Below, piece by piece: positions 5,626 through 8,993 of a stretch of DNA of 33,978 bases. The stretch lies in NCBI GenBank assembly GCA_017399305.1, contig JAFQDK010000002.1, forward strand, positions 1 to 33,978, written 5' to 3'. Position 1 is the stretch's first letter. Each line of letters begins with the position of its first letter. The notes below the pieces were generated by a model. It worked only from the letters and a program-made list of their open reading frames with translations, ran no database searches and had not been told where the DNA came from. The DNA comes from Clostridia bacterium (GTDB lineage Bacteria; Bacillota; Clostridia; Oscillospirales; CAG-272). The translations under genes were made by a program, and so were the position numbers.

Positions 5626-6339
5626 ATGGCTATGTGGAATCCATGGCGCGGTTGTAAAAAATTCAGTGAAGGATGTCTGCATTGCTATATACATAAAGGC
5701 GATGCAAAACGTGGTGTTAACACGAACGACATTGTAAAAACAAAAGATTTTTACAAGCCTATTGAGCAGTTAAAAAGTGGAAACTACAAAATGAAATCTG
5801 GGATAGTTTATCTTTGTTTTTCAACAGATTTCCTGATAGAAGAAGCAGACGTTTGGCTTAAAGTGTGCTGGGATATGATAAAAAAGCGACAGGACTGCAC
5901 TTTTCTTTTTCTCACCAAACGTATAGAAAGATTTGAAGATTGTATTCCTGACGATTGGGGCGACGGATATGATAATGTTGTTGTATGCTGCACCGTTGAA
6001 ACTCAAAAAAATGCAGATAAAAGATTGTCATTATTTAAATCACTTCCGATAAAACACAAATGTATTACTGCACAACCGTTGCTTGAAAAAATACATATTG
6101 AACCGTATCTTAATAATATCGAACTTGTAGTTGTCGGTGGAGAGTCGGATAATTGCGCGCGACCGTTTGATTATGATTGGGCACTTGACATCAGAGAACA
6201 ATGTATTCGCAAAAAAGTATCCTTTGAGTTCAGGCAATGCGGAACTCATTTTATCAAAGATGGTAAAGAATACAAATTGCAAACAAAAGACCTGTGCAGT
6301 CAAGCGAGAAAAGCAGGAATAGATTTTAATGCTCACTGA
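5626..6339 (+). CDS. DUF5131 (phage Gp37/Gp68-like) family protein
   Basis: A 237-residue protein opening with WNPWRGCKKFSEGCLHCY (4-21). The cysteines at 10, 17 and 20 match the conserved N-terminal cluster of the DUF5131 family, which resembles an iron-sulfur or radical-SAM site. FLTKRIERF, VVCCTVETQ and VVVGGESD are further family features. The family is frequent in phages and mobile islands; its reaction is not known. The ATG is preceded by GGAGA. Only a weak promoter candidate lies in the 49-bp AT-rich gap upstream. The flanking genes are chromosomal and no phage genes are near, so it is either a captured gene or a resident copy. Base composition is more AT-rich than its neighbours to the eye. 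Confidence 0.8.
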   Translation: MAMWNPWRGCKKFSEGCLHCYIHKGDAKRGVNTNDIVKTKDFYKPIEQLKSGNYKMKSGIVYLCFSTDFLIEEADVWLKVCWDMIKKRQDCTFLFLTKRIERFEDCIPDDWGDGYDNVVVCCTVETQKNADKRLSLFKSLPIKHKCITAQPLLEKIHIEPYLNNIELVVVGGESDNCARPFDYDWALDIREQCIRKKVSFEFRQCGTHFIKDGKEYKLQTKDLCSQARKAGIDFNAH

Positions 6340-6378
6340 TACCCCCCATTTGTAGAATCAAATATTGAATTTTGATCT

Positions 6379-6413
6379 AAAAAGGTATTGCATTTTTATG
6401 CAATACCTTTTTG
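6379..6413 (+). terminator. Terminator after the DUF5131 gene
   Basis: AAAAGGTATTGCAT pairs with ATGCAATACCTTTT around a short T-rich loop, ending in a T-run. The 162-bp gap between genes holds this hairpin and the next promoter and nothing else recognisable. Confidence 0.85.
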
Positions 6414-6441: not shown

Positions 6442-6470
6442 TTGACATTGGGAATTTTTTGTATTAAAAT
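6442..6470 (+). promoter_or_regulatory. Promoter of the vanW-like / dltA-like / dltC-like unit
   Basis: Perfect -35 TTGACA (6442-6447), 17-bp spacer, -10 TAAAAT (6465-6470), followed by a leader of roughly 25 nt and the GAGAGG ribosome binding site. No operator palindrome was recognised around it, so expression may be constitutive. Confidence 0.85.
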
Positions 6471-6500
6471 ATATTAAATTATGCATTTGAGAGGTATAAA

Positions 6501-7337
6501 ATGGCAAGAAAACTTTTTTGCGAACTTCATCCCATCTGCTATGAAATTTCATGGAAAAAGGAGATTTTAAAACGCCACATTGAAGACTTTTTCAGTAGCG
6601 AAAAAATCTCCAAAAACCACAAGGAAAAAGAACTGCCAAACATTGTTAAAGGACACAGTTCTATTCTCATCAGAAAACTTCACGGCGTCGATATTGTTCT
6701 CCAGCAAAACAAAGTAACAAACATCGAACTTGCCTGTGAAAAAATCAGCGGTATAGTAATTCGCCCAGGTGAAACATTTTCATATTGGGAAACCGTAAAA
6801 AGACCAACCGTGCGTAATGGATATAAAGACGGTCTTGTTATCCTCAAGGGCGGTATTTCATCCGGTATAGGCGGCGGACTTTGCCAGATGGCAAACATGA
6901 TCCACTGGCTTGTACTCAACAGCCCCCTTACCGTCACAGAACTTCACCATCACAGTGATGCGCTCTTCCCCGATGAGCGCCGCCGTGTTCCCTTTGGCAC
7001 CGGTACCTCTGTAAGCTACAATAATGTTGATTACCGTTTTAAAAACACTACCGATCAAGCTGTTCAGCTTATAGTATGGTGTGAAAACGGCGAACTTTGC
7101 GGTGAGCTTCGCAGTGAGAAGCCATTCCCATACAGATATAAAATCGTAGAGGAGAATCACCATTTCCGCAAAGAGGGCGAAAAGTATTACAGAATATCTC
7201 AGGTTTACCGTATCGTTATTGACCGTGAAAGCGGTGAAGAAATCCGCAAGGAGTTGATCCTTGACAATCACTCAGAAGTAATGTATGACTACAGCCTGAT
7301 TCCTCAGGAGCAAATCAGGAGTGAAACAAATGTTTGA
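6501..7337 (+). CDS. VanW-family protein
   Basis: A 278-residue VanW-family protein, the length of VanW from VanB-type vancomycin resistance clusters. The VanW domain covers about residues 83-200 and shows RPGETFSYW, GGGLCQMANM (Cys128) and ELHHHSD (His149-151), the invariant positions of the family. No signal peptide or membrane segment is seen, so the protein should be cytoplasmic. The biochemical role of VanW is not established. It is the first gene of a three-gene unit: its last eight bases overlap the ATG of the adenylation enzyme. No vanHAX, vanRS or vanY is present, so this is no evidence of vancomycin resistance. The conserved Cys and His residues could be catalytic (inference). Confidence 0.9.
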   Translation: MARKLFCELHPICYEISWKKEILKRHIEDFFSSEKISKNHKEKELPNIVKGHSSILIRKLHGVDIVLQQNKVTNIELACEKISGIVIRPGETFSYWETVKRPTVRNGYKDGLVILKGGISSGIGGGLCQMANMIHWLVLNSPLTVTELHHHSDALFPDERRRVPFGTGTSVSYNNVDYRFKNTTDQAVQLIVWCENGELCGELRSEKPFPYRYKIVEENHHFRKEGEKYYRISQVYRIVIDRESGEEIRKELILDNHSEVMYDYSLIPQEQIRSETNV

Positions 7338-8730
7338 GCTGCTGAAGCACGCTTTTGAAGAACATAAAAATCGCCCTGCATACAAAATAGGTGAGTACAA
7401 GCTTACATACGGTGAACTTTTCGACAAAGCATCACACTATGCTTCTCTTCTCAGAAAACAAGGTTCTTCCCCCGTGATTCTCTACGGTAAAAAAACGATA
7501 AACACCGTTATTGGAATTATCTCATGCATTCTCGCGAGGAGAACATATATCCCACTCGACCTTAACTCTCCGGAATCGCGCGTGAAGAAAATCACAGATA
7601 TAGCAGGCGCTACCCTTGTTGTCACCAGCGAAAACATCAACATCGACAATGTTGACTGTGTATCACTTGACGGTCTGCAATCATTTGCAGACGGTGAAGA
7701 AAAGGAACCGACATGCGGTGATATTGTTTACATAATCTTCACTTCCGGCACTACCGGTATACCCAAGGGGGTACCGATATCAAACAGCAACCTCAAAAGT
7801 TTTATCACATGGATAAGCGCGTTTTCCCCTCTTGATACTTTCAAAGAAATAAACGTAATGAATCAGGCAGAGTTCTGTTTTGACCTGAGTGTTGCCGATT
7901 TCTACTACGCTTTATGCAACGGTCACAGACTTGTTTCATATGAAGCTGACAAAGCGCCGATCGCGGACTTCGTAGAGGAAAATGCAATAAACTATATGGT
8001 CATCACGCCAACTTTTGCAAGGCTTTGTCTGCTTGATGAAAAGTTTAATGCATCCGACTGTCCTACGCTTAAATGCATTTATTTTTGCGGAGAAACTCTC
8101 GAGAAAAAGACGGCAAAACGTCTTTTCAGAAGATTCCCGGATATCTGCCTTATCAACGCATATGGTCCTACCGAAGCAACATCGGCAGTATCAGCCGTAA
8201 TCGTAACACGCGATATGCTTGATGATGAAAGGTCATTGCCTATAGGCAAGACAGGCATGCATGCTACCGAAATATGCATAGAAGACGGCGAAATCGTACT
8301 AAAAGGCAACAGCGTTTTTGGCGGTTACCTTGGTGCAGATCTTGAAAGTCACTATGTTGAAAACGGCAAGAACTGCTATAAAACTGGTGACCTTGGCGAA
8401 ATTGCTAACGGTCTGCTTTATTATCACGGACGTATGGACTCCCAGATCAAATACAAGGGATACCGTATTGAACTCGGAGATATTGAAAGCCATCTGCTTA
8501 AAATAAGCGGTGTGGTTGAAGCAGCTGTCATCACTAAAAAGTCCGGCGACACCATCAAAGGTATTTATGCATTTGTTGTTGTCAAAAAAGATCTTGACGA
8601 AGATTTCATCAAGTCTGAATTGCACAAGACATTGCCAAAATATATGATGCCTAAAAAAGTTACTGTAATTGACAAAATGCCTGTAACAAACAATAAAAAG
8701 CTTGATAGAAAAGCGTTGGAGATGCTATGA
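7330..8730 (+). CDS. DltA-like D-alanine (amino acid) adenylation enzyme
   Basis: A 466-residue ANL-superfamily enzyme that should activate an amino acid as acyl-adenylate and load it on a carrier protein. Seen core motifs: TSGTTGIPKG (138-147), NAYGPTEA (276-283), YKTGDLG (350-356), KGYRIELGDIE, and the C-terminal catalytic lysine in NNKKLDRKAL (Lys456/457). FCFDLSVADFYYAL and YFCGETL match the D-alanine-specific DltA group better than general NRPS domains. I chose ATG 7330 over GTG 7321 because AGGAG ends at 7320. It overlaps the vanW-like gene by 8 nt and the carrier gene by 4 nt. DltB and DltD are absent nearby. D-alanine as substrate is inferred, not shown. Confidence 0.88.
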   Translation: MFELLKHAFEEHKNRPAYKIGEYKLTYGELFDKASHYASLLRKQGSSPVILYGKKTINTVIGIISCILARRTYIPLDLNSPESRVKKITDIAGATLVVTSENINIDNVDCVSLDGLQSFADGEEKEPTCGDIVYIIFTSGTTGIPKGVPISNSNLKSFITWISAFSPLDTFKEINVMNQAEFCFDLSVADFYYALCNGHRLVSYEADKAPIADFVEENAINYMVITPTFARLCLLDEKFNASDCPTLKCIYFCGETLEKKTAKRLFRRFPDICLINAYGPTEATSAVSAVIVTRDMLDDERSLPIGKTGMHATEICIEDGEIVLKGNSVFGGYLGADLESHYVENGKNCYKTGDLGEIANGLLYYHGRMDSQIKYKGYRIELGDIESHLLKISGVVEAAVITKKSGDTIKGIYAFVVVKKDLDEDFIKSELHKTLPKYMMPKKVTVIDKMPVTNNKKLDRKALEML

Positions 8731-8963
8731 AAAGAATAAATGTTTCAGAACTTCTGTTTGAGATATGCGAAGACAAAGCTGTATATGATCCCGACTGCGA
8801 ACTTCTTGAAAGTGAGATTCTTGATTCTCTTGCTTTTATTGAACTGTTCTCGCGACTTGAAGACGAAGGAATTGAGCTTCAGCCTACAAGAATTGACCGC
8901 TCGCTGTTAAGCACCCCCAGAAAGATTGAAAAGCTTATCAACAAATATCTTGAAGAAAATTAA
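8727..8963 (+). CDS. DltC-like acyl/peptidyl carrier protein
   Basis: A 78-residue acidic carrier protein. ESEILDSLAFIELF (28-41) contains the attachment serine Ser34 in the DSL context, where a 4'-phosphopantetheine arm would carry the activated amino acid. The tail RIDRSLLSTPRKIEKLI resembles the end of DltC (an aspartate/arginine before TP-KI). Length equals that of DltC. It overlaps the adenylation gene by an ATGA and is followed directly by a strong terminator, closing the unit. A general peptidyl carrier protein is the alternative. The phosphopantetheinyl transferase needed for activation is not in the window. Confidence 0.85.
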   Translation: MKRINVSELLFEICEDKAVYDPDCELLESEILDSLAFIELFSRLEDEGIELQPTRIDRSLLSTPRKIEKLINKYLEEN

Positions 8964-8966
8964 ATG

Positions 8967-8993
8967 AAATCCCCGACAAGTCGGGGATTTTTT
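8967..8993 (+). terminator. Terminator closing the vanW-like / dltA-like / dltC-like unit
   Basis: AATCCCCGAC, AA loop, GTCGGGGATT, then a T-run. It starts four bases after the carrier-protein stop codon. Confidence 0.92.

Follow-up and report, generated by a model that had tools for sequence, protein, structure and literature searches.

The VanW proteins are members of glycopeptide-resistance gene clusters whose function is not known, and the locus described here raises the question of what such a protein does when it is encoded directly in front of an amino acid-activating enzyme and a carrier protein. The locus lies on contig JAFQDK010000002.1 of a Clostridia bacterium assembly (GCA_017399305.1; 57 contigs, 63.7% complete), which was analysed as one whole contig of 33,978 nucleotides (nt), hereafter called the window. 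Positions 6501-8963 of the window are occupied by a closed plus-strand unit in the order vanW-like gene, dltA-like gene and DltC-like carrier gene, with a hairpin on either side. The D-alanylation of teichoic acids is carried out by the Dlt system, which consists of DltA, DltB, DltC and DltD. An earlier note on this DNA, made from the sequence alone, had pointed out that DltA- and DltC-like proteins are here accompanied by VanW instead of DltB and DltD, and had suggested a dedicated aminoacylation route. The cassette is a real, conserved and apparently undescribed three-gene system; no description of a VanW-DltA-carrier cassette was found in the open-licence literature searched.

Organization of the unit

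The features of the unit, all on the plus strand, are as follows:

6378..6413, plus strand: hairpin followed by a U run (RNA fold -19.6 kcal/mol, z -7.1), separating the unit from the upstream gene
6442..6470, plus strand: promoter-like TTGACA-17-TAAAAT, 11 of 12 consensus bases
6501..7337, plus strand: vanW-like gene, 278 amino acids (aa), PF04294 at 140.6 bits (cut-off 27)
7330..8730, plus strand: gene of the DltA-like adenylation enzyme, 466 aa from ATG 7330 or 469 aa from GTG 7321
8727..8963, plus strand: gene of the DltC-like carrier, 78 aa, with the phosphopantetheine site Ser34 in the motif LDS
8966..8990, plus strand: terminator-like hairpin that ends in a U run (RNA fold -15.8 kcal/mol, z -4.6)

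The three overlapping genes of the earlier note were confirmed with their coordinates, including the 4-nt overlap of dltA with the carrier gene and, if dltA starts at ATG 7330, the 8-nt overlap with vanW; the alternative upstream GTG 7321, from which we count the residues of the DltA-like enzyme, would extend the latter to 17 nt. The hairpin at 6378-6413 is probably the terminator of the upstream gene. The proposed promoter is a mere consensus match, because a scan of the window found 13 sites with at least nine matching bases, against 9.0 ± 3.6 in shuffled sequences. A hairpin with a U run does exist where the note had placed a terminator (8967-8993), but the terminator scan called it on the minus strand only, and its total of three was no different from that of shuffles (3.6 ± 2.1).

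Distribution and conservation of the cassette

Relatives of the window VanW were sought in one genome per species (84,980 species scanned), and the best 80 of 565 were analysed, all counts being lower bounds. At 45 of these 80 loci, vanW, dltA and the carrier gene follow one another in the same order, and in 43 of them all three are full-length; the position of vanW directly upstream of dltA/dltC, which the note had proposed to look for in other genomes, is thus not a chance neighbourhood. The 45 loci include L061 (dltA broken over two frames), L092 (vanW cut by the contig start) and L098, and exclude L045; beyond them, the cassette is present in the window itself and in genome G008, and the gene neighbourhoods varied. 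The commonest junctions over the 45 cassettes, with the most upstream open reading frame starts assumed, are -8 (13/45) and -4 (20/45). The other 35 loci consist of L045 with a gutted dltA, L072 with vanW and dltA and no carrier seen, 27 solo vanW genes (at least 900 nt of downstream sequence and no DltA) and six loci cut by a contig end, which falls inside dltA in L037 and L038 and too early to judge in L050, L080, L088 and L104. Locus L051 lies on the same contig as the cassette genome G028.

The cassette is rare, scattered and conserved. A VanW match at E <= 0.001 was present in 14 of 58 related genomes, most of which belong to the same family and order. The closest VanWs, those of G008 (74% identity) and G028 (68%), stand in vanW-dltA-carrier order, and the three VanWs ranking after them (48, 46 and 40%) are solo, the neighbours having been read for the five best of the 14; five genus-mates (53-84% complete) had no VanW match at E <= 0.001. 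Near genomes with the cassette thus number 3/59, the window counted. In 290 random genomes of the class, 27 had a VanW at E <= 1e-40; damaged cassettes were seen in two of them (G135, G163), and no intact cassette lay within about 1.5 kb of the 27 VanW matches.

According to their record labels, the bacteria bearing the cassette are mostly Clostridia and Bacilli (Oscillospiraceae, Lachnospiraceae, Peptococcaceae, Erysipelotrichaceae and others), and the sample source of many records is gut or rumen. The odd labels are one 'Tenericutes', one archaeon and one Treponema; labels of metagenome-assembled genomes (MAGs) can be wrong. For the Treponema cassette contig (77.8 kb), the encoded LeuRS is 80-83% identical to that of five genus-mates (70-79% for a sixth, in two pieces), as compared with 54-61% over residues 2-580 for four clostridial genomes. 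The contig is therefore Treponema at LeuRS (31 kb), and a false join may lie between there and the cassette (7-10 kb); the cassette-type VanW was found in 1/59 Treponema genomes.

Note also that several cassettes look damaged: in L045 dltA has an internal deletion (1359-1816), in L061 it runs over two frames, and in L135 and L136 both vanW and dltA are fragmentary and interrupted by stops or frame breaks. Assembly error is possible in all of these cases.

Linkage of the three proteins

Pairwise protein distances over the 45 cassettes are correlated for VanW and DltA (0.87), VanW and the carrier (0.76) and DltA and the carrier (0.77), and 0 of 2000 permutations gave a value as high for any pair; these correlations, calculated without a host control tree, also contain shared host ancestry. 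Of the 69 adenylation proteins placed in a tree, the 43 that come from cassettes require a single label change (support 82; 42 of them behind the starred branch) and stand apart from the DltB-linked DltAs, from the enzymes of the MBOAT operons described below and from 11 others that are probably nonribosomal peptide synthetases (open frames of 1,005-6,559 aa). No cassette-type DltA without VanW was present among the DltA matches at E <= 1e-55 in the 290 class genomes.

No further gene accompanies the cassette over its whole range. A gene of the 4'-phosphopantetheinyl transferase (PPTase) family is divergently oriented beside vanW in 10/80 loci, nine of which have all three genes and one of which is cut off by a contig end; its identity rests on Pfam ACPS matches for the two tested (43 and 54 bits) and on similarity for the others. 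Exporter or tailoring genes do not recur as immediate neighbours of the cassette in the 80 loci, and an ABC-ATPase-like family is found in nine of them, 0.2-4.5 kb away, with the cassette present or not.

Two side observations concern the upstream region. In L027, L029, L033, L044, L046, L067 and L101, the region 0.7-0.8 kb upstream of vanW encodes a protein family of 344-573 aa whose N-terminal repeats are rich in Asn, Ala and Thr. In 6/7 it lies beyond the PPTase gene, and the one member tested had no Pfam match. Just upstream of the unit in the window lies the gene of a DUF5131 protein (5626-6339), which weakly resembles radical SAM mobile pair protein A (27.9 bits against a cut-off of 355).

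The DltA-like enzyme and the carrier

The adenylation enzyme and the carrier of the cassette resemble the Dlt system most, but the window proteins stay below the cut-offs of the corresponding models: the two best NCBIfam matches of the enzyme are DltA models (407.2 of 476; 382.5 of 559.85, TIGR01734), and those of the carrier are DltC models (30.6 of 68; 30.0 of 52.35, TIGR01688). In the carrier alignment (window plus 40 loci), 36 of the 41 proteins match TIGR01688 at E <= 0.001, and D33-S34 is invariant in all 41, which bears out the loading serine named in the earlier note. The DltA alignment comprises the window, 42 cassette loci and the DltA of Vagococcus elongatus; D188, C256, R371, K377 and K460 are found in 43/43 cassette enzymes.

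In Bacillus cereus DltA, the methyl group of D-alanine faces a Leu, Met200 and Cys268, the last of which keeps out L-alanine (PMC8972799). Tabulating the specificity residues, as the earlier note had recommended, gave the following picture: the Asp, Leu and Cys of the D-Ala pocket are kept in 43/43 cassettes, including the selectivity Cys, and the Met is found in 3/43 only, being replaced by Ala in 39/43; moreover, Ala takes the place of a Thr in 41/43 and Ser or Cys that of a Val in 41/43. The substrate is probably a D-amino acid. Because Asp and Cys are kept but Met has become Ala and Val has become Ser or Cys, we expect the pocket to offer more room and to accept a D-amino acid whose side chain is larger or more polar than that of alanine. 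Predictions from pocket residues are not reliable, since only 4/11 DltB-linked DltAs (ten clostridial ones and that of Vagococcus) have the full D-Ala set. In the DltB-linked clostridial DltAs of L163-L168 and L172, it is Ile, Val or Ala that aligns with the selectivity Cys; either these enzymes activate a substrate other than D-Ala, or the alignment is off by one residue there.

The VanW protein

In the VanW alignment (window plus 63 of the 80 loci, 64 rows), the catalytic Cys128 and His151 are present in 64/64 soluble VanWs, and D153, N132, E147 and K20 are likewise invariant. None of the 64 has a membrane-type segment by 19-residue hydropathy (highest value 1.39, window 1.16, none over 1.6; no signal-peptide program was run). 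The window VanW thus appears to be soluble, consistent with the cytoplasmic protein supposed in the earlier note. Its AlphaFold2 (AF2) model has a predicted local distance difference test score (pLDDT) of 86.6 and a predicted template modelling score (pTM) of 0.84.

The VanWs of vanB and vanG clusters are also soluble and of about 275 aa, with 30% (plasmid VanW-B) to 42% (Enterococcus faecalis plasmid VanW) identity to that of the window. The latter differs from them by its linkage to an adenylation enzyme and a carrier, and it stays below all three NCBIfam cut-offs (vanW-gen 195.1 of 365, vanW-G 154.6 of 600 and vanW-B 124.9 of 610 bits). VanW-B, described as of unknown function, was required under vancomycin in a 2025 transposon-directed insertion-site sequencing (TraDIS) screen (PMC12211089). 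In Clostridioides difficile, VanW domains act as L,D-transpeptidases with a triad of Cys, His and a small residue and are thought to work like YkuD enzymes, and some VanW proteins are without transpeptidase activity and have unknown roles, according to a 2025 review (PMC12729407). The window VanW shares with LdtCd4 and LdtCd5 the catalytic domain family, the GGGC motif and the His, a comparison made via 12 more distant VanW matches from relatives of the order and not with the C. difficile proteins themselves. All 12 have the Cys and the His, for seven the frame read shows a membrane-type segment at the N terminus, and the position of Asn132 is taken by Ser (11) or Thr (1). According to the same review, LdtCd4 and LdtCd5 are membrane-attached and carry PG4 domains (PMC12729407), whereas the window VanW has no anchor, has Asn132 and is linked to a carrier partner.

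The VanWs of cassettes constitute a grade in a VanW tree (112 rows, quick method), and 28 solo VanWs make up a clade with a Shimodaira-Hasegawa-like approximate likelihood ratio test (SH-aLRT) support of 100; seven solo VanWs sit among those of the cassettes. Near the active site, L112, Q129, H150, F156, R161 and G166 are found in 46/46 VanWs of cassette loci and are different in 13 HAD-linked VanWs, position 129 being Gln in 51/64 rows and Asn in 13.

All 23 solo-clade rows that come from the VanW scan are HAD-linked, and no cassette locus has a HAD gene. In this group (23/80 loci), a YqeG-like HAD gene lies directly or nearly upstream of vanW or is fused to it. The loci concerned are:

L057, L059, L071, L074, L076, L080, L083-L089, L091, L093-L096, L099, L100, L102-L104: HAD-linked vanW

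The HAD-linked VanWs are soluble as well and 55-61% identical to the window VanW, but they have no adjacent DltA or carrier and have other residues beside the Cys and His. HAD and vanW share one frame in L087, L093 and L099, and Pfam confirms HAD plus VanW for L093. A 227-aa protein with a weak His_biosynth match (16.6 bits, below cut-off) is encoded within a few kb in 22/23 of these loci, and a Staphylococcus warneri plasmid bears the same HAD-VanW pair of annotations.

Relation to the Dlt system

Could the cassette be a dlt operon in pieces, with dltB and dltD elsewhere in the genome? We searched 46 cassette genomes (those with all three genes except L028 and L031, plus L072), for three of which completeness is known (G000 63.7%, G008 98% and G028 95%). 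None of the 46 had a DltB over cut-off, a DltD match at E <= 0.001 or a DltA over the TIGR01734 cut-off (559.85 bits), and the window's own assembly, 63.7% complete, likewise had neither a DltB over cut-off nor a DltD match. The same searches in Vagococcus elongatus, our positive control, recovered all three (DltB 526, DltD 443 and DltA 662 bits). The absence of DltB and DltD noticed earlier in the window therefore extends over these genomes and argues for a dedicated unit rather than a split dlt operon. The missing genes are less telling than they look, since dlt operons are apparently not common in the class: DltB-linked DltAs at E <= 1e-55 were found in at least ten of the 290 random class genomes. 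By itself the absence of dltB and dltD is weak evidence. The cassette also differs from the Dlt system in that its adenylation enzymes form their own group in the tree with an altered pocket, and in that VanW stands in place of an MBOAT protein.

Weaker MBOAT proteins, below the DltB cut-off, are present in 40/46 cassette genomes and none matched in six. In each of the four cassette genomes that were opened (L190-L193), an MBOAT gene and a further adenylation enzyme gene belong to an operon separate from the cassette. A carrier gene was called in three of these operons (L190, L192 and L193), and at the corresponding place in L191 an antisense frame was called. These operons share with the cassette an adenylation enzyme and a carrier, but their enzymes form a separate clade (SH-aLRT 100), and they have an MBOAT gene and, in 3/4, a pyridoxal phosphate (PLP) decarboxylase-like gene. 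In G000, two MBOATs lie beside a gene that reads as AlgJ-like (no family search), without a carrier.

The gene order of the L190-L193 operons, all in gut MAGs, is adenylation enzyme, PLP decarboxylase-like protein (not in L193), carrier and MBOAT. An SGNH or AlgJ-like gene follows in L190-L192, and an AcpS-like gene is beside the operon in L190 and L192. The names were read from the frames, only the adenylation enzyme and MBOAT being identified by family search. These operons may be another dlt-like system that transfers something other than an amino acid.

Proposed mechanism and alternatives

We propose that the cassette encodes a cytoplasmic, carrier-dependent aminoacyl transfer system of three proteins. 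An amino acid would be adenylated by the DltA-like enzyme and loaded as a thioester onto the phosphopantetheine of carrier Ser34; judged from the conserved residues, this activation and loading are very likely. Cys128 of VanW would then accept the aminoacyl group and pass it to an amine, a role that we infer from the family chemistry and the gene linkage. Since no additional gene accompanies the cassette consistently, the acceptor would be a housekeeping molecule of the cytosol; the most likely one is a peptidoglycan precursor, nucleotide- or lipid-linked, whose stem peptide would receive the amino acid. Mur-ligase-type matches are present in 46/46 cassette genomes and exceed the MurF cut-off in 32. 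To the full chain, with VanW as transferase and a wall precursor as acceptor, we assign a probability of about 0.45. In L196-L201, which have no standard MurF over cut-off, genes read as alpha/beta hydrolase, MurF-like and Ddl-like follow one another; the MurF-like protein (519-549 aa) has an N-terminal hydrophobic extension, and the hydrolase is not listed on that strand in L198.

Several observations weigh against this proposal. Known VanW chemistry is the cleavage of L,D peptide bonds and does not involve a thioester donor. Among the 27 solo VanW relatives, 20 are HAD-linked and seven are not (L042, L047, L064, L065, L069, L070 and L097), and two of these seven are 67-68% identical to the window VanW; a VanW gene can thus, at least locally, do without the two loading genes. 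In L072, a vanW-dltA pair was seen with no carrier over roughly 800 nt. The marker residues, Q129 among them, follow the clade, solo members included, and not the cassette as such. The putative D-amino acid specificity leans on one conserved Cys, which in the alignment is missing from 7/11 DltB-linked DltAs. Finally, residues 151-180 of the AF2 model, the His151 loop, are weak (block-mean pLDDT 54-70), and the active-site geometry of VanW is uncertain because of this low pLDDT.

Four other explanations must be set against the transfer to a wall precursor. VanW could join the carrier-bound amino acid to a small free amine, such as an amino acid or a polyamine, in a minimal peptide or amide synthesis whose product is unrelated to the wall. 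A stand-alone adenylation enzyme, a carrier and a Cys transferase would make a possible minimal nonribosomal module, and the sparsity of the cassette is accessory-like (3/59 near genomes; no intact and two damaged cassettes in the 290 class genomes), but VanW proteins have otherwise been linked with peptidoglycan (PMC12729407, PMC12211089), no exporter or tailoring gene recurs directly alongside, and the ABC-ATPase-like family is confined to 9/80 loci; we regard this as unlikely, though the least so of the four. A reversal of roles, in which a cytosolic stem peptide would be the substrate of VanW acting as an L,D-transpeptidase and the carrier-bound amino acid would be the amine acceptor, so that the last stem residue is exchanged, seems more improbable. 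It would agree with the YkuD-like action ascribed to VanW L,D-transpeptidases (PMC12729407) and with the Cys and His common to the 12 distant matches, seven of them with a membrane-type segment, but such an exchange requires no ATP activation and the DltA-like enzyme would be superfluous.

The two remaining explanations deny VanW a part in the reaction and are both very improbable. An unlinked MBOAT might use the loaded amino acid on teichoic acid or another surface polymer, with VanW being incidental, and some MBOAT protein does occur in most cassette genomes; yet six have no MBOAT match and none has a DltD match, the MBOAT operons of the four opened genomes have their own adenylation enzyme (and a listed carrier in three), the two MBOATs of G000 adjoin an AlgJ-like gene without a carrier, and one cassette is on a Treponema contig. 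Marginally less probable still, VanW might merely be co-transcribed and have a reaction of its own, the DltA-carrier pair feeding an unrelated enzyme. The seven solo VanWs among the cassette VanWs of the tree would fit this, but in 45 cassettes the genes stand close together or overlap and the protein distances are correlated, which speaks against it, as does the lack of a VanW-less cassette-type DltA among the matches in the 290 class genomes.

Significance

The cassette names the likely donor substrate of a soluble VanW, and its reaction could hence be assayed with three purified proteins. Cassette records that are not marked as MAG or uncultured are those of Pseudoflavonifractor phocaeensis An569, Gemmiger sp. 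An194 and Pseudoflavonifractor sp. MSJ-37, strains of which may be available. A bolder proposition, which we consider doubtful at present, is that soluble VanWs are a new class of carrier-protein-dependent aminoacyltransferases that add an activated D-amino acid to intracellular peptidoglycan precursors without tRNA, ATP-grasp ligase or MBOAT, and that the VanW of glycopeptide resistance would be a solo relative with related precursor chemistry. If the acceptor is indeed a wall precursor, the cassette would represent a new route for amino acids into peptidoglycan.

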